From contig NZ_VCQU01000002.1 of the NCBI RefSeq assembly GCF_012932915.1, forward strand, positions 124,001 to 188,000: 64,000 nt of DNA. The letters run 5' to 3'. The notes under the pieces are model-generated. The model did no database searches and was not told where the DNA came from. It saw only the letters and a program-made list of their open reading frames with translations. The stretch is from Antrihabitans stalactiti. GTDB taxonomy: Bacteria > Actinomycetota > Actinomycetes > Mycobacteriales > Mycobacteriaceae. Shown here piece by piece: positions 43,131-52,182 of the stretch (position 1 is its first letter; each line of letters begins with the position of its first letter). The position numbers and the translations under genes were made by a program.

Positions 43131-44123
43131 CTACGGTTTCGTCACGAAACCTTCTTGAACGAGCCAGTCGCGTGCGACGTCGGCAGGCTCGGTGCCGTCG
43201 ACGTCGACCTTCCGATTGAGTTCGGTCATCACCTTGTCGGTCAGGCGCGCGGAGATCGGCGTCATCACATCGGCGACTTGCGGGTGTGCCTCGGCAAAGC
43301 TGGTCTTCATTACCAGCGCTGGGTTGTACTTCGGGAAGAACTGTCGATCATCTTCTAGCAGAACAAGATCCAGTGCGATGATGCGACCGTCCGTGGTGAA
43401 CACCTCGCCGAACTTGCATTGGGCTCCGTCGGCTGTCGCTTGGTAGATGATGCCGGTCTGCAAAATCTGCCGCTTGGCCTGCCCGGCGTCGAACTCGTAT
43501 TTCGCAGCCATGCCGGGGAAGCCGTCCTGCCGGACGTTGAACTCGGTTTCCACGCACGTTGTGGCGGCGTCCGGGTTGCTGGCGACGAGCCGTGCGTAGT
43601 CCGAGAGCGTCTTGACGCCTGTCTGCTCCGCGGTCTGCCGATTCATCGCCAGCGCGTAGGTGTTGTTCATCGGTGCAGCTACGGCCCAGATCATGTCGTT
43701 GGCTGCCAAATCCGCGTCGCGGACGGCCTCGAACTGGGCCTGGGAACCCGGGACGGGATTCTCGTTGCCGAGGTAGTTGATCCAGCCTGTACCCGTGTAC
43801 TCGTAAGTCAGGTCGATCTGTCCGTTCAGCTGCGCGTCACGGGTGCTGTTGGAACCCTGGATATTGGTCAAGTCGCGGATATCTGCGCCCGCGGCTGCCA
43901 ACGCGAATTCGATGATGTAGCCCAGGGTTATTTGTTCGGTGAAGTCTTTCGAGCCGACGGTGATCTTCACTCCCTCGAGTTCGGGGACCGGCTGAATGCT
44001 GCCGGGACCGACCTCGAGCGGCAGCGCGCCGCCGGATTGCAATCCGCACGACGCAACGAAGGCCAGACTTGCAGCGATCCCGACCGCCGCGAGCGGTCGC
44101 CGCAGGCGACGAGCGCGGCGCAT
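43131..44123 (-). CDS. Glycine-betaine/choline-type substrate-binding lipoprotein (OpuCC-like), system 1
   Basis: 330 residues. The signal ends in a lipobox (AFVASC). The OpuAC-type binding domain starts VKITVGSKDFTEQITLGYIIE and has DLTYEYTGTGWINYLG and FGEVFTTDGRIIALDLVLLEDD, typical of osmoprotectant/choline binders. ATG 44123 overlaps the permease stop by one base. Last gene of the four-gene operon. Confidence 0.9.
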   Translation of the reverse strand: MRRARRLRRPLAAVGIAASLAFVASCGLQSGGALPLEVGPGSIQPVPELEGVKITVGSKDFTEQITLGYIIEFALAAAGADIRDLTNIQGSNSTRDAQLNGQIDLTYEYTGTGWINYLGNENPVPGSQAQFEAVRDADLAANDMIWAVAAPMNNTYALAMNRQTAEQTGVKTLSDYARLVASNPDAATTCVETEFNVRQDGFPGMAAKYEFDAGQAKRQILQTGIIYQATADGAQCKFGEVFTTDGRIIALDLVLLEDDRQFFPKYNPALVMKTSFAEAHPQVADVMTPISARLTDKVMTELNRKVDVDGTEPADVARDWLVQEGFVTKP

Positions 44124-44929
44124 CAGCGCAGCCCCTTCGGCCCGAGGAACTGTTCGGCCAGCGCGCCGACCCAATCGATCAGCAGCGCAAGCGATACCGC
44201 AAGAACCGCACCGACGACGAGGGTCACGTTGTCGCGCAACTTGTAGCCGGTGTCGATCAGAATGCCAAGGCCACCAGCGCTGACGAGAAAGCACAGGGTC
44301 GCGGTGCCGACCGCGAGGACGAGCGAAGTACGCAGTCCGGCAAGGATGTACGGCACAGCCATCGGGAACTCGACGCGGCGCAGCACCGTCATGGGTGACA
44401 TACCCTGACCGCGCCCCGCGTCGATCAAGGTCCCATCGACCTCTTGGTAGCCGAGGATCGTATTGCGCAACACGGGAAGCAATGAATAGAACGCGATAGG
44501 GAGAACACCGATCCAGAAGCCTGTGGTGCGCGTCGCGAGGTAGAAGAGCACCAGCAACCCGATAGCAGGCGCTGCGGCGCCGACATTCGCGACACCGACG
44601 AAGAGCGGTGCGAGGCGGGTATAGCCGGGACGGGTCAACAAGGTTCCCAGCGGCACGGCGATGACGACGACGATCACAACGACCGCGATCGTGATCAACA
44701 CGTGTTGCCAGGTCAGAGTCGCAATGTTGGACAGGCTGATGCTGCCCTTCTGGGTCGCGGTGAGATCGCGACTGAATGCCCAGGTCAGCACGCCTGCAAC
44801 GAGGATGAGCACGAGTACCGGTTGCGCGAGCAAGCGGATTCGATCGGCCCGCTTGGCTGCTGAGTTCTCTTTGACGCTGAGGTCCGGCTCCTGCTCCATA
44901 TCGGGCGGCGCGGTTGTCGGAGCACTCAT
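44123..44929 (-). CDS. OpuC-type ABC permease, system 1
   Basis: 268 residues, about six membrane spans. The inner-membrane permease signature is GVANVGAAAPAIGLLVLFYLA with the EAA-loop-like region VDGTLIDAGRGQGMSPMTVLRRVEFPMAVP. The N-terminal 35 residues form a charged cytoplasmic tail. Overlaps its neighbours by 1 and 4 bp. Confidence 0.9.
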   Translation of the reverse strand: MSAPTTAPPDMEQEPDLSVKENSAAKRADRIRLLAQPVLVLILVAGVLTWAFSRDLTATQKGSISLSNIATLTWQHVLITIAVVVIVVVIAVPLGTLLTRPGYTRLAPLFVGVANVGAAAPAIGLLVLFYLATRTTGFWIGVLPIAFYSLLPVLRNTILGYQEVDGTLIDAGRGQGMSPMTVLRRVEFPMAVPYILAGLRTSLVLAVGTATLCFLVSAGGLGILIDTGYKLRDNVTLVVGAVLAVSLALLIDWVGALAEQFLGPKGLR

Positions 44930-46134
44930 GACCTTGTACCACTGTGGTCGATATCGCTGGCTTCTTCGGCGTGGTCGTCCGCGTGTTCTGCTCGCATCGA
45001 CGACAGGTGTCCGACAAGGGTGTCGATCGTGATCAAGCCGACGTATTCACCTCGTCGTCCGGTGACGCACGTCGACGCTGTGCTCTCGGCGAGCAGCGCT
45101 TCCAAAGCATCCTGCAGCGTCGACTGAGTCGAGACCATCTCGCCGACGTTCTGTCCGACGCCGCGGAGTGTGGTGGCGTGGGCGAGGTGAGCGGGAGATA
45201 CCCAGCGCAGCGGGCGGCTCCGGTCGTCGAGTATCAAGGCCCACTGACGCTTTCGGGTTTCGAGAAGTTGACGCAACTCGTCGACGGAATCGTCCTCGGT
45301 AACCGTCGGACATTGCAGCAGTTCCACATCGCGCACGCGAGTCAGGGTCAACTGCTTCAGCGACGCGTCCGCGCCGACGAAACCTGCGACCATGTCATTG
45401 GCTGGGTTGGCGAGAATTGCTTCGGGCGTGTCGTACTGCATGATGCTGGATTGATTGCCCAGCACCGCAATTCGGTCGCCGAGCTTGACCGCTTCGTTGA
45501 AATCGTGGGTGACGAAGACAATCGTTTTGCTCAGTTCGGTTTGCAGGCGCATCAATTCGTCCTGCAGGAGTCCCCGGGTGATGGGATCGACTGCGCCGAA
45601 AGGTTCGTCCATCAGGAGCACTGGTGGATCAGCCGCGAGTGCACGCGCCACGCCGACCCGTTGTTGCTGACCGCCGGAAAGCTGGCGCGGATAGCGATCT
45701 CGGTAGATATCGGGATCGAGGCCCACCAGGTCGAGCATCTCGTCGACTCGTGCGTTTATCCGCTTCTTGTCCCATTTGATCAGACCCGGCACGGTCGCAA
45801 CGTTTTTGGCGATCGTCATGTGTGGGAACAGACCCGCTTGCTGGATCGAGTAGCCGATCCCGCGACGCAATTCGTTTGGATCGATCGACAGTGCGTCCTT
45901 GCCGTCGATCGTGATCTTGCCCGACGACGGCTCGATCAGGCGATTGATCATGCGCATCGTCGTGGTCTTGCCGCAGCCCGACGGTCCCACGAAGACGACG
46001 GTCTCGCCTGCGGGCACAGTGAGCGATACATCCTCGACTGCAGCGTCGCGTTGTCCCGAGTAGCGCTTCGTTACGGACTCCAGCACTATCTCGACCCCCG
46101 AGACTGTCGATTCCGTTGTGGCAGAGTCAGTCAC
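44926..46134 (-). CDS. OpuC-type ABC ATPase with CBS domains, system 1
   Basis: 402 residues. Walker A GPSGCGKTT, signature LSGGQQQR, Walker B VLLMDEPFGAVDP, H-loop VTHDF. A C-terminal CBS pair (about 275-385) would sense ionic strength or nucleotides, as in OpuA. GTG 46134 overlaps the upstream permease stop by 8 bp and is preferred to the longer frame from 46173. Confidence 0.92.
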   Translation of the reverse strand: MTDSATTESTVSGVEIVLESVTKRYSGQRDAAVEDVSLTVPAGETVVFVGPSGCGKTTTMRMINRLIEPSSGKITIDGKDALSIDPNELRRGIGYSIQQAGLFPHMTIAKNVATVPGLIKWDKKRINARVDEMLDLVGLDPDIYRDRYPRQLSGGQQQRVGVARALAADPPVLLMDEPFGAVDPITRGLLQDELMRLQTELSKTIVFVTHDFNEAVKLGDRIAVLGNQSSIMQYDTPEAILANPANDMVAGFVGADASLKQLTLTRVRDVELLQCPTVTEDDSVDELRQLLETRKRQWALILDDRSRPLRWVSPAHLAHATTLRGVGQNVGEMVSTQSTLQDALEALLAESTASTCVTGRRGEYVGLITIDTLVGHLSSMRAEHADDHAEEASDIDHSGTRS

Positions 46135-46777
46135 GGATACCCCTAGATGTTGTGAAGCGGCCGACGAGGACATAGAGCCCGTCGAGAATCAGCGCGAGAA
46201 TGACGATGAGAACGGTGCCGACCAGTGCTTGCGGAACTGCGTTGGGACTGCCGACGCGAGAGAGCCCGGAGAAAATCAGATTCCCGAGACCAGGACCTTT
46301 GGCGTATGCGGCGATCGCGAGGATGCCCATGATCATCTGGGTGCTGACGCGCATACCCGTCAGGATCGATGGCCACGCCATCGGCAATTCGATACGAGTC
46401 AGCACACCGACTCGATTCATTCCGACGCCACGGGCCGCATCGGTGACCGCTGGGTTCACGGACGCAAGGCCGATGATGGTGTTTCTGATGATCGGCAGCA
46501 ATGCATACAAAACGAGCGCGGTGATGGTTGGGGCTACCCCCAAGCCGAGCAGTGGAATGAGCAGTCCGAGCAGTGCGAACGACGGAATGGTGAGAATCGT
46601 GCTGGCAGCCGCGGTGGCGACCGCCGAGCCGATCGGGCTGCGATATACGAGGATTCCGATCGCGACGGCAATGATTGTCGCAATGACGACCGATTGGACG
46701 ACCGCCGAAACATGCAGATAGGAATCGGTAAGCAATTGCTGCCGCCGATTCACGACAAAATTCCAGAGGGCGTCCAT
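46127..46777 (-). CDS. OpuC-type ABC permease (first gene), system 1
   Basis: 216 residues from ATG 46777 (MDALWNFVVNRRQQLL). Five or six spans with LTIPSFALLGLLIPLLGLG and the EAA loop VTDAARGVGMNRVGVLTRIELPMAWP. The frame is open to 47065 but that part is antisense to the NUDIX gene. First gene of the operon, divergent from NUDIX with 69 bp between. Confidence 0.88.
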   Translation of the reverse strand: MDALWNFVVNRRQQLLTDSYLHVSAVVQSVVIATIIAVAIGILVYRSPIGSAVATAAASTILTIPSFALLGLLIPLLGLGVAPTITALVLYALLPIIRNTIIGLASVNPAVTDAARGVGMNRVGVLTRIELPMAWPSILTGMRVSTQMIMGILAIAAYAKGPGLGNLIFSGLSRVGSPNAVPQALVGTVLIVILALILDGLYVLVGRFTTSRGIRD

Positions 46778-46846
46778 TGGAGCGAGTGGTACCCCTTTAA
46801 CCTGGGGTTCAAACCATTTTCTCGAGCCTTTACGCTCGACGGCGAA

Positions 46847-47416
46847 ATGGGAAACGATGCGGTCGACCTCGATGCGGTACTGAGCCGCGTTGCCGAACAC
46901 CGGCCGCGGATCGAACCCCCGGCTACATGGCATGCCGCCACAGCGCTGGTCTTCACCGCCAAGCCCGAACCGCAGTTCATCGTGATCCGTCGGAGCGTTC
47001 GGCAGGGTGACATGTGGTCCGGACATGCGGCGTTGCCCGGCGGTAGAGCGGACCCATCGGATCAAGACGTCGTGGCGACCGCACGCCGTGAGACGTTCGA
47101 AGAGGTCGGCGTCACGCTGGGCGACGCGGTCGGCAGGCTCGACGATATCGCTGGTCGAATGATGAAAGGCGTCGTCTCGACGGCCGTCTTCGTCCTCGAC
47201 GAGGCAGTTCCGTTTACTCCCGATCCCGCCGAAGTTGCTGCAGCGTATTGGGTTCCGCTGTCGCTGCTATCGAACCGCGCGGCGCGAGTCCGGCATCCAC
47301 ATCGATTGTTCGGTCCCTGGCCGGCGTGGGAGTTCCGGACCGGCGAAGAACCTCCGCACGACAAGTTGATCATCTGGGGCCTGACGCACCGCATCCTGTC
47401 GTCGTTGCCCAGCTGA
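46847..47416 (+). CDS. NUDIX hydrolase (CoA-pyrophosphatase-like)
   Basis: 189 residues. The NUDIX box reads PGGRADPSDQDVVATARRET then FEEVGV; the REXXEE core is intact while the first Glu is replaced by Gln, as in several CoAse-type members with a DP.D motif. Substrate likely a nucleoside-diphosphate derivative. ATG 46847; the upstream open frame overlaps the permease. Divergent from transporter system 1. Confidence 0.88.
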   Translation: MGNDAVDLDAVLSRVAEHRPRIEPPATWHAATALVFTAKPEPQFIVIRRSVRQGDMWSGHAALPGGRADPSDQDVVATARRETFEEVGVTLGDAVGRLDDIAGRMMKGVVSTAVFVLDEAVPFTPDPAEVAAAYWVPLSLLSNRAARVRHPHRLFGPWPAWEFRTGEEPPHDKLIIWGLTHRILSSLPS

Positions 47417-47458
47417 ACGCGAATTGAGCTTTGCGGCTCCGTGCGGTAGTAAGGAGAA

Positions 47459-47533
47459 GTGTCCACGACCCTGCTAGTTCGACGTCGAACCGTCGATCTG
47501 TGTCGTGTGGGCTCGAGCTTCTGTTGTCGGTAG
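47459..47533 (+). CDS. Cysteine-rich leader peptide upstream of the TauD-like gene
   Basis: 24 codons from GTG 47459, with AAGGAG 3 bp before it. The product contains VRRRTVDLCRVG and ends CCR, matching the actinobacterial leader peptides (V-RRHVDLCR ... CCR type) found upstream of sulfur-assimilation genes. Ribosome progress through the Cys codons would report cysteine supply. The two UGU codons lie in the 5' arm of the following hairpin, and the peptide ends 49 bp before the dioxygenase start. Confidence 0.82.
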   Translation: MSTTLLVRRRTVDLCRVGSSFCCR

Positions 47534-47550
47534 GCGTCTGCCCCCGACAA
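47524..47550 (+). promoter_or_regulatory. Attenuator-like hairpin overlapping the leader's Cys codons
   Basis: TTGTCGG (47524-47530) pairs perfectly with CCGACAA (47544-47550), with an inner GGC/GCC. A ribosome stalled at the UGU-UGU codons would block this stem. No long U-run follows, so control is more likely translational or Rho-linked than intrinsic termination. Mechanism inferred. Confidence 0.65.
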
Positions 47551-47582
47551 CCCTGCTCGCATTCTCAGAAAGCCCAATACGC

Positions 47583-48452
47583 ATGTCTGTCTCTTTCGAC
47601 GTCGCACCTGTCCAATCACAGCTCGAACTGACTCCGCTCGGACCGCATTTCGGCGCAGAAGTAGCCGGGATCGATGTCGAGACGGCCTCGCAGGAGCAGC
47701 TAGCTGCGCTGCGGTCGGCGCTCGTGCAGCACAAGGTGTTGTTCCTGCGCGACCAGTTCATCGACGACGCTGCCCACATCGAGCTCGGCCGTCGGTTAGG
47801 CGAGCTCACCGCCGGACATCCAGTGCACGACAGCGGGGACGTTCCGGCCGAGGTGTATGCGCTCGATAGTCAGGACAATGGATTTGCCGACGTCTGGCAC
47901 ACCGACGTGACGTTCATGCCGCGTCCACCGCTCGGGTCGATCCTGCGACCGCTGGTGCTTCCGCCCAACGGCGGCGACACCAACTGGGCCGATTCGCAGC
48001 TCGCGTACGAATCGCTGTCGACGCCGATGCAGCGGTTGGTGGATCAGCTGACGGCGGTGCACGACGGCAATCGCGAGTTCGGCTACTACCTGAAGCAACG
48101 CCGCCAGGGGCAGGGGAACCTCTGGGACGGCGAACGGGTGACCGCGCTGGTGCCGGTCGAACATCCGGTCGTGCGAGTGCATCCCGAGACGGGACGCAAA
48201 GGGCTGTTCGTCAATCCCGGCTTCACGTCACACATCGTCGGCGTCTCGGAGGCGGAGAGCCGGGGCATTCTCGACGCCCTCTACGCGCACCTGACGAAGC
48301 CGGAACATGTGGTGCGGCACCGCTGGCGTCTCGGCGATCTTGTGTTGTGGGACAACAGAAGTACCGCGCACTATGCCAACCGGGATTACGGCTCGCAGCG
48401 TCGGATCATGCACCGCATCACCTTGCGCGGTGACATCCCGGTCGGGCCCTAG
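47583..48452 (+). CDS. TauD-family Fe(II)/2-oxoglutarate dioxygenase
   Basis: 289 residues from ATG 47583. The iron triad is H106-T-D108 and H263 (STAHYANRDY), with the 2-oxoglutarate-binding Arg near RRIMHRITLRGD. The family releases sulfite from taurine, other sulfonates or alkyl sulfates. The cysteine-rich leader supports a sulfur-scavenging role under sulfur limitation. It lies between two OpuC-type transporters; whether either imports its substrate is unknown. Convergent with the second transporter operon, 2 bp between stops. Confidence 0.9.
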   Translation: MSVSFDVAPVQSQLELTPLGPHFGAEVAGIDVETASQEQLAALRSALVQHKVLFLRDQFIDDAAHIELGRRLGELTAGHPVHDSGDVPAEVYALDSQDNGFADVWHTDVTFMPRPPLGSILRPLVLPPNGGDTNWADSQLAYESLSTPMQRLVDQLTAVHDGNREFGYYLKQRRQGQGNLWDGERVTALVPVEHPVVRVHPETGRKGLFVNPGFTSHIVGVSEAESRGILDALYAHLTKPEHVVRHRWRLGDLVLWDNRSTAHYANRDYGSQRRIMHRITLRGDIPVGP

Positions 48453-48454
48453 CC

Positions 48455-49423
48455 TCAGTCGATCAGCCCCTCGCTCTTCAGCCAGTCGTAGGCGACGTCT
48501 GCCGGATCCTCGCCTTTGATGTCGACCCGGCCGTTCAACTCCTGCATGACGTCGTCGGTGAGTCGCTCGGAGATCTTGGCCATCAGGTCGGCTATCACCG
48601 GGTTGTCTTCGAGTACCTGGGCTCGAATCACAGCGGAACCGCTGTAGGGCAGGAAGAACTTTCGGTCGTCCTCGAGGACAGTGAGGTTCAGGTTCTTGAT
48701 GCGACCGTCGGTGGTGTAGACCATGCCGAAATTGCACGGTGCGCTGCGCGCAGTCGATGTGTATACAACGCCGGCGTCCATTCGAGTGACTTTGTCCTGC
48801 GGAACGCCGTTGGGTGCGTTGAGCTCGATGCCGTAGGTCTTCAGCATCGGAACGAATCCGTCTGCACGACTGAAGAACTCGTCGTCGACGCAGAAGGACC
48901 GGTCCGCTGGCGGCAACTTGGCGACATCGGAGAGCGTCTTGACGCCGAGTCGTTCTGCTGTCGCCGCCGACGCTGCGAAGGCGTAGGTGTCGTTGAAGTT
49001 GGCCGGGGGCAACCACTCCAAGTCGTGATCGCGCTTTTCGACGTCGTGGACGCGCTGCCACAGCTGCCCTGGATCGGAGATCGTCTCGGTCTCGCCGTGG
49101 TAGTTCACCCACCCCGTGCCCGTGTACTCCCACAGAATGTCGGCATCACCGTTCAATTGCGCCTGCCGTGACGACGCCGATCCGGGTGCGCCCGTGAGGT
49201 CGGTGACCTTGGCGCCGGCCGCCGCGAGATAGGTCGCGGTGATCTTTCCGAGGATTACGCCCTCGGTGAAGCTCTTGGACGTCACCACGATCGACGCACC
49301 CGCCAACGGACGCTCGCCACCGGGCAGTGACGCGTCATGGAAGGTGCCCGACGAACTGACCAACCCACAGCCGGCTGCAGCCGTGACGGCGAGTACTCCT
49401 GCGGCGAGCCGAAGCCGGGTCAT
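48455..49423 (-). CDS. Glycine-betaine/choline-type substrate-binding lipoprotein, system 2
   Basis: 322 residues. Lipobox VTAAAGC, then ASIVVTSKSFTEGVILGKI, DILWEYTGTGWVNYHG and FGMVYTTDGRIKNLNLTVLEDDRKF. Clearly paralogous to the system 1 binder but diverged in the ligand region, so the substrate may differ. ATG 49423 overlaps the permease stop by 4 bp. Last gene of the operon. Confidence 0.9.
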   Translation of the reverse strand: MTRLRLAAGVLAVTAAAGCGLVSSSGTFHDASLPGGERPLAGASIVVTSKSFTEGVILGKITATYLAAAGAKVTDLTGAPGSASSRQAQLNGDADILWEYTGTGWVNYHGETETISDPGQLWQRVHDVEKRDHDLEWLPPANFNDTYAFAASAATAERLGVKTLSDVAKLPPADRSFCVDDEFFSRADGFVPMLKTYGIELNAPNGVPQDKVTRMDAGVVYTSTARSAPCNFGMVYTTDGRIKNLNLTVLEDDRKFFLPYSGSAVIRAQVLEDNPVIADLMAKISERLTDDVMQELNGRVDIKGEDPADVAYDWLKSEGLID

Positions 49424-50157
49424 GCCACTCCTCGAGGGGTTGCGACCAGCTCGACCAACCGTCCGAGCCAATCGATCGTCAATGCAAGCAGCCCGACCAG
49501 AATGGCGCCCGAGATGAGCAGTTTCGGCAAGAACAGGGTCACTCCGGTCGTGATGAGCGTGCCCAAGCTGGTGGCGCCGATGAAGGTGCTGAGCGTTGCT
49601 GTGCCGACCAAGATGACGAGTGCGGTCCGTACGCCGTTGAGAATGACCGGAACTGCGAGTGGCAATTCCACCTGCAACAGCGTGCGCGTGCCTGAGTAGC
49701 CGATTCCGCGCGATGCCTCGATGGTTCGTTTGTCGACCTGGTCTATGCCGGTGATGGTGTTCTGCAGGATCGGCAGGATTGCATAGACCACGAGACCGAC
49801 TACAGCAGTGCGGAATCCGGTGCCGAGCCACATCGTGAGCAGCACGATCAAACCGACTGCGGGCGCTGCCTGGCCTACGTTGGCGATGTTCACGACGATC
49901 GCCTTGAAGGGCTTTGCCTTCTCCCGAGTGAGGAGAATGCCCAGTGGGATCGCGATCGCCACGACGATCGCCGTCGCAGTCAAGGTCAGGGTGATGTGGT
50001 CGAGAATCGTGGTGCGGAGGTTGTCCCAACCCAGCGATGCTGCCTCGGTCGACGTGAATGTCGCCGATCGGTACCACAGGATGTAGCCGACGCCGAGAAT
50101 CAGGATGATGAGCGGCTCGAACCACACATCGATCGGGGTGCGCCGAAGTGTTTTCAT
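49420..50157 (-). CDS. OpuC-type ABC permease, system 2
   Basis: 245 residues, about six spans. Contains ANVGQAAPAVGLIVLLTMWLG and the EAA-loop VDKRTIEASRGIGYSGTRTLL. Counterpart of the 44123-44929 permease. Overlaps both neighbours by 4 bp. Confidence 0.9.
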   Translation of the reverse strand: MKTLRRTPIDVWFEPLIILILGVGYILWYRSATFTSTEAASLGWDNLRTTILDHITLTLTATAIVVAIAIPLGILLTREKAKPFKAIVVNIANVGQAAPAVGLIVLLTMWLGTGFRTAVVGLVVYAILPILQNTITGIDQVDKRTIEASRGIGYSGTRTLLQVELPLAVPVILNGVRTALVILVGTATLSTFIGATSLGTLITTGVTLFLPKLLISGAILVGLLALTIDWLGRLVELVATPRGVA

Positions 50158-51338
50158 GCCGTGCCCTCGGTGTGGTCGCTGTAGGTGACTTGCTCCTCGT
50201 CAGCCCGTGCGTCGGAGAGTTGCCCGCGGATGACCGCCATCACGGTCGCGATGGTGAGCGCGCCGGTGACGGCACCTCTGCCGTCGGTGACCAGCACGCC
50301 ACCCTGGCTCGCTGCCAGCATCGAGTCGAGAGCGTCGTTGAGCGTCGACGACGGCGCCACGGTGGGGAGTCGCGGATCGACGTAGTCGGAGATGCGTTCT
50401 TTGGTCGCCACCTCGTCGAGCGACGGCCATGCCCGACCCCGGCCTTGGTCGTCGACGACGACGATCCACGTCGCGCCTGCCGCCTTCGCCCGATTGATGA
50501 CCTCTCGCGACGAATCGCCGACGCGCGCCGTCACGACCGGGTTGTGGTCGACGTCCTTGACTCGCGTGAGCGTCAGGTGAGCGAGCGTGGCGCCCGATCC
50601 GATGAACTCCTCGACGAACGCGTTGGCGGGTTTCGCGAGGATCTCCTCAGGTGTCCCGTACTGCTCGATCTTCCCGCCCTCGGACAGGATGAGGACTTTG
50701 TCGCCGAGCTTCGTCGCCTCTTCGAAATCGTGCGTTACGATCACGATCGTTTTCGCCAGCTCGTGCTGAATGGCGATCAAACTGTCCTGCAACCGAACTC
50801 GGGTGATCGGATCGACCGCTCCGAATGGCTCGTCCATCAGGAGTACCGGCGGATCCGCGGCGAGGGCGCGTGCGACACCGACGCGCTGCTGCTGTCCGCC
50901 GGACATGTCCTTCGGTAACCGATCGCGGAAGGTGTCGGCATCGAGGCCGACGAGATCGAGGAGGTACTCGGTGCGTTCGGCGATGCGGGCTTTGTCCCAG
51001 CCGAGCACGCGCGGGATTGCGCCGATGTTCTTGCTCACCGACCAGTGGGGGAACAATCCGCCCGACTGGATGACGTAGCCGATCGACTGGCGCAGCTTGT
51101 CCGGGTCCTCGCCGGTGACGTCGCGGTCGCCGATGAAAATGCGACCCTCGGTCGGCTCGATCAGGCGGTTGATCATCTTCAAGGTCGTCGTCTTGCCGCA
51201 ACCGGACGGACCGACGAACGCCACGATGTGGCCGGCTTCGATATCGAGATCGATCTTCTGCACAGCGGGCTTCGCAGTGCCTTTGTACTGCTTGACGACG
51301 CCGTCGAGCCGAATGGAGGCACCGGTGATGTCTGTCAT
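50154..51338 (-). CDS. OpuC-type ABC ATPase with CBS domains, system 2
   Basis: 394 residues. Walker A GPSGCGKTT, signature MSGGQQQR, Walker B LLMDEPFGAVDP, H-loop VTHDF. A CBS pair occupies about 260-375. ATG 51338 (MTDITGASIRLDGV) overlaps the upstream permease stop by 4 bp; the longer frame is a shadow. Confidence 0.92.
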   Translation of the reverse strand: MTDITGASIRLDGVVKQYKGTAKPAVQKIDLDIEAGHIVAFVGPSGCGKTTTLKMINRLIEPTEGRIFIGDRDVTGEDPDKLRQSIGYVIQSGGLFPHWSVSKNIGAIPRVLGWDKARIAERTEYLLDLVGLDADTFRDRLPKDMSGGQQQRVGVARALAADPPVLLMDEPFGAVDPITRVRLQDSLIAIQHELAKTIVIVTHDFEEATKLGDKVLILSEGGKIEQYGTPEEILAKPANAFVEEFIGSGATLAHLTLTRVKDVDHNPVVTARVGDSSREVINRAKAAGATWIVVVDDQGRGRAWPSLDEVATKERISDYVDPRLPTVAPSSTLNDALDSMLAASQGGVLVTDGRGAVTGALTIATVMAVIRGQLSDARADEEQVTYSDHTEGTA

Positions 51339-51979
51339 GACAGTCCCTTCGCAATGGTGAGGCGCCCGAGTAGGACGAGCAGGGCGTCGAACACCAAGGC
51401 GATGACGACGATGAGCACGGTGCCGGTGATGGCCATTTCTACGGAGTTGGTGCCGCCCAACCGGGACAGACCGTTGAAGATCAGCGAACCGAGGCCCGGG
51501 CCGAGCACGTAGGCGACGATCGCGGCAACGCCGACGACCATCTGCGTCGAAACGCGAATTCCGGTGAGGATTACCGGCCACGCGATCGGCAGCTCGACCG
51601 AGAAGAGAATGCGTCTGCGGGATAGTCCGATCCCACGCGCGGACTCGATCACCGATTCGGGAACCGAACGCAGTCCGACGATCGCATTTCCGATTACCGG
51701 CATCGCGGCGAAAAAGGCCAGCATGATGAACGACGGAATTACTCCCAAGCCGAACGGGACGATCAGCAACGCGAGCAATGCGAGCGACGGGATGGTCAGC
51801 GCGACTCGGCTGGACGTAAGGGTCAGCGCGGCAATCAGGGGGAGTCGATACACCGCAATTGCAATGGCAATGGCGACGATGGTTCCGACCAGAACGGTTT
51901 GAAACGCAAGCGACGCATGCTGATACGTCAGGAACGTAAGGAACCCACCTCGTCCCTGCAGGTAATCCCAGATGTGCAT
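51335..51979 (-). CDS. OpuC-type ABC permease (first gene), system 2
   Basis: 214 residues, MHIWDYLQGRGGFLTFLTYQ followed by five or six spans and LTIPSLALLALLIVPFGLG, VIESARGIGLSRRRILFSVELP. Same size and order as the first gene of system 1. A 203-bp gap upstream holds the operon promoter, but no clear motif is seen. Confidence 0.9.
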   Translation of the reverse strand: MHIWDYLQGRGGFLTFLTYQHASLAFQTVLVGTIVAIAIAIAVYRLPLIAALTLTSSRVALTIPSLALLALLIVPFGLGVIPSFIMLAFFAAMPVIGNAIVGLRSVPESVIESARGIGLSRRRILFSVELPIAWPVILTGIRVSTQMVVGVAAIVAYVLGPGLGSLIFNGLSRLGGTNSVEMAITGTVLIVVIALVFDALLVLLGRLTIAKGLS

Positions 51980-52182
51980 GAAACCCCTCTCGCAGCCACA
52001 AAGCGCCGGACCGGCGACGATACCGTCCAGATATCGACCATGACGGTATTTCGGTCTCGATCGTCACGATGCCCGATCATTTGCGAGAGACTACCCAGAA
52101 CTGTTAACTGCGAAAACGCAGGTTTTCGGTCGGTGCCGAATTTCGCACTGCACTTTAATTCTGGGCGATTCTAAATATCGAC

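Follow-up and report, generated by a model that had tools for sequence, protein, structure and literature searches.

A candidate cysteine-responsive leader peptide ahead of a tauD-like dioxygenase gene in Antrihabitans stalactiti

What does a 24-codon reading frame with tandem cysteine codons do immediately ahead of a gene for a TauD-like dioxygenase? We examined this locus in a window of 64,000 nucleotides, meaning the whole stretch of DNA that was analysed from the soil bacterium Antrihabitans stalactiti, for which a preliminary description had proposed a cysteine-sensing leader peptide and had assigned the enzyme to sulfur scavenging. Both proposals are supported, because the peptide matches a leader family, is conserved, and stands in a fitting gene context. 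On sequence and modelling taken together, we regard it as reasonably probable that the frame mediates cysteine-responsive translational attenuation of a tauD-like sulfonate dioxygenase, as in the polycysteine short ORFs of mycobacteria. The features of the locus are as follows.

47424..47429, plus strand: TTGAGC, a predicted -35 box separated from the -10 box by 17 nt; relatives share the TTG
47447..47452, plus strand: TAGTAA, a predicted -10 box separated from the leader start by 6 nt; relatives share a hexamer starting with TA
47451..47456, plus strand: AAGGAG, 2 nt from the GTG, more likely -10/discriminator sequence than the Shine-Dalgarno site it was first taken for
47459..47533, plus strand: leader ORF encoding MSTTLLVRRRTVDLCRVGSSFCCR, GTG start, 24 codons, TAG stop, identified by its NF042934 match and conservation
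47501-47503, plus strand: further UGU Cys codon of the leader, from the ORF sequence
47522..47527, plus strand: two adjacent UGU Cys codons, where stalling is predicted, from the ORF sequence
47583..48452, plus strand: tauD-like Fe(II)/2-oxoglutarate dioxygenase, 289 aa, TauD/TfdA family (PF02668, 4.7e-66)

The leader peptide gene and the start of its translation

Judged by its sequence, the leader peptide gene at 47459-47533 is genuine. It begins 42 bases after the end of a NUDIX gene (47416), and the GTG frame reads VRRRTVDLCR...CCR as first described, closing with UGU UGU CGG UAG and thus placing tandem Cys codons near the stop of a short ORF. The peptide had been said to match known leader peptides, and it does belong to NCBIfam NF042934 (cis_reg_atten, "putative leader peptide"), scoring 28.2 bits against a curated cut-off of 27, although in a six-frame scan of the whole genome the same site reached 25.9, just below that cut-off. 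The profile of the Cys-rich leader Ms5788A (NF042933) is matched in part, at 26.5 bits, below its cut-off of 45. An Rfam search of 47000-48000 gave two matches, both at chance level, and a DNA pattern scan with up to three mismatches returned mostly noise. Related leaders were identified by motif, the NF042934 score having been obtained for the window leader, and 17 distinct 75-nt sequences among them share RR, D, C-R and CC without exception, the CC being present in every one of these 24-codon frames. Their variable columns number 15, 7 and 21 of 23 at codon positions 1, 2 and 3, and this concentration of variation at third positions is the pattern of a translated peptide.

It was proposed that the leader has its own ribosome-binding site, AAGGAG. 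The sequence is present, but a gap of 2 nt to the GTG is shorter than a Shine-Dalgarno site normally needs, and the hexamer is not common to the leaders of relatives. What these leaders share is the spacing of promoter-like boxes, which in the window is TTGAGC-17-TAGTAA-6-GTG. A TTG box lies 17-18 nt 5' of a -10-like hexamer in 26 of the 28 leaders compared, and a hexamer starting with TA (TAGGAA in 23) ends 6-7 nt before the start in all 28, the script having taken the best fit among gaps of 5-8; in an alignment of 14 loci both boxes are in register. Under a strict sigma-70 consensus, no promoters were detected in 47300-48600. A match of four of six bases to AGGAGG is found 4-9 nt before the start in 26 of the 28 leaders, mostly within the TAGGAA box itself, a distance at which initiation of the Shine-Dalgarno type would be feasible. 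Because the promoter spacing is conserved, and because AAGGAG is both too near the GTG and unshared, the leader is probably leaderless, with a transcript that would begin at the GTG and need no Shine-Dalgarno site.

Sulfur genes and the spread of the leader

The dioxygenase gene follows the leader as first described, and its product carries the TauD domain with the PF02668 match given above. The best NCBIfam model for the enzyme is PRK09553, taurine dioxygenase, at 285.6 bits; as this is below the cut-off of 313 for an equivalog, taurine is not established as the substrate. The gene neighbours found among relatives support a role in obtaining sulfur from sulfonates. At the locus L071, permease and ATPase genes adjoin the gene of a substrate-binding protein (SBP), the one SBP tested, whose best match is the taurine binding protein model TIGR01729 (220 bits, below the cut-off of 304); at L081, a gene for a TauE/SafE sulfite exporter comes after tauD; and a homologue of the Cys/Met-metabolism PLP enzyme of L066 is encoded downstream in 20 of 27 Rhodococcus/Antrihabitans loci. 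The leader therefore lies upstream of genes for sulfur or cysteine supply, namely tauD and taurine-type transporter genes. An excerpted report (PMC8557817) groups TauD proteins with sulfur acquisition in Rhodococcus cultures whose sulfur source was dibenzothiophene. In the A. stalactiti genome, the taurine SBP has only two matches, 30-33% identical and both located elsewhere. As judged by reading the ORF translations, NUDIX-leader-tauD is flanked on both sides by minus-strand genes (window 43131-52067), which form two neighbouring sets for ABC transporters of the Opu type (glycine-betaine-like).

Four TauD homologues were found in the genome, and within flanks of 1.5 kb an ORF with the leader motif is present near the window one and near none of the other three. 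Two other leaders of the genome exceed the NF042934 cut-off.

C23:392042-392098, minus strand: leader VQTSQELMLTRRRAVDLCRLAGCCCRTCR (L035), followed by DUF4395 and rhodanese genes of the cysA2 type; TAAACT lies 7 nt ahead of its GTG
C23:96043-96096, plus strand: leader ending RRHIDLCRTASGWCQG (L036), upstream of a 208-aa ORF

By inspection, a TANNNT box precedes the start of each at a distance of 7 nt. The gene order behind the first, DUF4395 followed by rhodanese, identifies it with the cysA2-type locus of PMC4633059, an excerpt of which describes a short ORF upstream of cysA2 and ribosomes occupying the locus in M. smegmatis. For the 208-aa ORF behind the second, the match to the NtaA/DmoA monooxygenase model is confined to the C-terminal part of that model, and there is no Pfam match at 0.001.

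Among the best 80 of 412 tauD relatives, which were those examined for leaders, 47 loci have one. It lies directly 5' of tauD in 25 of them and at the head of a permease-SBP-ATPase-tauD gene cluster in 22; the latter, distal leaders comprise L066, L071 and 17 others recovered by a stricter motif and L105, L113 and L123 recovered by a looser one. All 27 Rhodococcus/Antrihabitans loci among the best 80 have the leader (25 direct, two distal), a count whose members are not all independent, since L064 and L065 belong to one genome and appear identical there. The 33 loci where no leader was found, several of them with incomplete sequence, are 20 from Gordonia, one from Williamsia and 12 others. In the Gordonia DNA examined, the stricter motif found a leader in none of the 20 loci, many of which stop before the end of the cluster; the looser scan covered 20 of the 36 loci lacking a stricter match, including seven of the 20 from Gordonia. 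The cysteine codons themselves vary to some degree. The Rhodococcus leaders L070 and L077, each of 23 codons, close with MRCR and contain no tandem Cys codons, and in several distal leaders (e.g., L104, L108, L114 and L120) there is just one Cys near the end. An extra leader-like ORF (RRHVDYCRT..SAVCPSVH) occurs downstream of tauD in L105 (near 4997) and in L113 (near 5309).

Predicted folding of the leader transcript and the possible output of a stalled ribosome

If the frame senses cysteine by translational attenuation, transcription would start at the GTG and the leader would be translated without a Shine-Dalgarno site, as the conserved promoter spacing suggests. With ample Cys-tRNA the ribosome would complete the leader and leave, and the freed leader RNA would, according to folding calculations, fold onto the tauD start region and limit initiation. 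Stalling at the Cys codons is predicted to expose that region, and the TauD enzyme made in consequence would, to judge from its family and gene neighbours, liberate sulfite from a sulfonate, either taurine or one like it, and so refill cysteine. Two nested structures are predicted in this RNA.

47508..47576, plus strand: larger predicted fold enclosing the hairpin, in which 47508-47513 pairs with 47571-47576 and 47514-47518 with 47555-47559
47523..47551, plus strand: 8-bp hairpin (47523-47530/47544-47551), with an inner 3-bp GGC/GCC stem enclosed

The larger fold extends to the sequence immediately 5' of the tauD start. The Shine-Dalgarno sequence of tauD is weak (AGAAAG), a point against the attenuation model. 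For 47459-47600 the predicted energy is -52.7 kcal/mol (z -4.25), and none of 200 shuffles was as stable. The cost of opening the tauD initiation region is 12.4 kcal/mol for the native RNA against 6.9 +- 1.6 over 400 synonymous recodings of the leader, only four of which cost as much (native above 396), and none of 40 leader shuffles reached the native value. Placing a ribosome on the tandem Cys codons brings the cost from the 12.4 of the free RNA down to 7.2 kcal/mol, a drop that includes any effect of trimming itself, as the calculation omits the RNA up to the ribosome. A ribosome at the leader stop codon frees the start region likewise (6.9 kcal/mol), so that masking requires fast release of the ribosome. 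A palindrome in the leader, TTCGACGTCGAA (47478-47489), has about 10 bases complementary to tauD codons 5-8 (47595-47604), a possible long-range pairing.

Among the relatives, whose rows are related rather than independent observations, the opening cost drops by 1 kcal/mol or more under a stalled ribosome in 17 of 24 loci, these being the loci of 26 that remain when L067 and L068, where no tauD start was found automatically, are left out. The native cost is above the leader-shuffled mean in eight of the 12 loci (of the 24) given the shuffle test, and above the synonymous mean, mostly by little, in 13 of the 17 tauD loci (of the 24) given the synonymous test, in which the L036 row was left out and codon weights from two window genes were applied to all loci. 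The cysA2-type leader of the same genome gave no sign of masking in the synonymous test (z -0.01). Start-site masking thus appears, in these models, strong in the window and uneven among relatives, and the Rhodococcus leader-tauD spacers, at 101-214 nt, are long for direct masking.

Those long spacers would suit a different output of the same sensor, which we consider rather unlikely for the locus, namely that the stalled ribosome shields a C-rich stretch from Rho and that, upon its departure, Rho stops transcription before tauD. The only terminator-like site in 47300-48600 is at 48321, inside tauD, and no intrinsic terminator lies between the leader and tauD; classical terminator attenuation is therefore not indicated, and this negative result counts in favour of Rho. 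In each of the 12 loci for which bases were counted, the interval from the leader stop to tauD holds more C than G, and the 34 nt of this interval in the window include 16 C and 6 G. These are raw counts, unadjusted for composition, and C-richness is not specific. Rho was proposed for mycobacterial cys leaders without terminators in an excerpted study (PMC1262725), which itself reports that the Rho motifs are unconserved and the prediction weak, and the predicted masking of the window tauD start is strong without Rho.

The preliminary description had instead placed the switch in a perfect stem over the tandem UGU codons of a leader started by a Shine-Dalgarno site. The stem exists and overlaps the UGU codons, with 8 bp rather than the 7 first given, and 47520-47556 is predicted to fold at -16.4 kcal/mol (z -4.5). 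It is also partly conserved, since GUCGG/CCGAC is kept in 18 of 28 leaders (L052-L055 have a different, larger stem and six have neither), and across 14 aligned loci 78.6% of its pairing cells can pair, against 30-52% when slid. Covariation, which had been named as a check on the leader, gave no such signal, as these 14 loci contain no compensatory changes and score 0.101 against 0.109 in shuffles. Equally stable folds occur in 501 of 18276 local 37-nt windows on both strands (2.7%), 34 of 400 synonymous recodings have a 3'-end hairpin at least as stable, and local folding exceeds that of shuffles (z < -2) in five of 28 leaders. Moreover, the stem has no U-tract, its 3' end sits 31 nt before the tauD start, and the AAGGAG on which this version relies is unconserved and only 2 nt from the GTG. 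We therefore reject the local stem as the sole switch and as the main reading, given the missing covariation and its common stability, and consider that version improbable; in this window the models favour the wider fold burying the tauD start as the better fit. That the conserved peptide acts otherwise, for example through translational coupling or a function of its own, and does not sense cysteine is very improbable, as the conserved RR and D, which Cys decoding leaves unexplained, and the missing tandem Cys of L070 and L077 are set against Cys codons otherwise conserved, a sulfur gene context across genera, and published relatives that reportedly respond to cysteine (excerpted in PMC13236596).

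A wider reading of cysteine-responsive attenuation, which we hold to be rather unlikely, makes the Cys leader the ancestral head of the actinobacterial taurine gene cluster, kept in place while the transporter genes behind it came or went, so that sulfonate use would be tied to ribosome-sensed cysteine across several families; the same sensor may drive start-site masking over the short spacers found in Antrihabitans and Rho-type termination over the long ones found in Rhodococcus. If attenuation operates here, the tauD-like enzyme is probably made only when cysteine is short, ribosome-sensed cysteine control would extend to organic sulfonate scavenging, and, of the four TauD homologues found in the genome, one would have regulatory evidence for its function. 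The natural leader variants, with spacers from 45 to 214 nt, would then lend themselves to testing which output the stalled ribosome controls.

Relation to known cysteine leaders

The kind of switch is already known; within the literature covered, its tauD target and the spread of that arrangement are the new part. Polycysteine leaderless short ORFs were reportedly described as attenuators in mycobacteria by Canestrari et al. in 2020 (doi 10.1111/mmi.14498). That work is cited in excerpted portions of PMC9094748 and PMC13236596, and the latter calls cysteine genes of M. smegmatis translationally attenuated. A literature search that was largely without subscription papers, and that returned sources in part, found no such leader described before tauD. 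The S. lividans metL peptide MSTTSDRTPATEATTTPGARCMCRRMCAF, located before metNIQ and described in an excerpt of PMC8079986 as having several methionines and threonines, has three Cys near its end as well, and to judge from these residues it may be a cysteine leader.

The window leader resembles NF042934 members in scoring above their cut-off, though below it genome-wide, and differs from the Ms5788A family (NF042933), which it matches in part, as the downstream gene is tauD and not DUF4395-cysA2. It also resembles the predicted cys-operon leaders of Seliverstov et al. (2005; PMC1262725, in excerpt) in having Cys codons near the stop and no terminator, whereas those leaders precede cys operons and cbs, with no tauD case in the excerpt. 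With the mycobacterial polycysteine attenuators it shares a short ORF, Cys codons near its end, a sulfur gene downstream, a predicted leaderless start, and predicted masking of the next start that stalling would relieve. It differs from them in belonging to another organism, in being known here from computation, in apparently controlling tauD alone in this genome, and in its cysteine codons, which are two tandem UGU and one earlier UGU.
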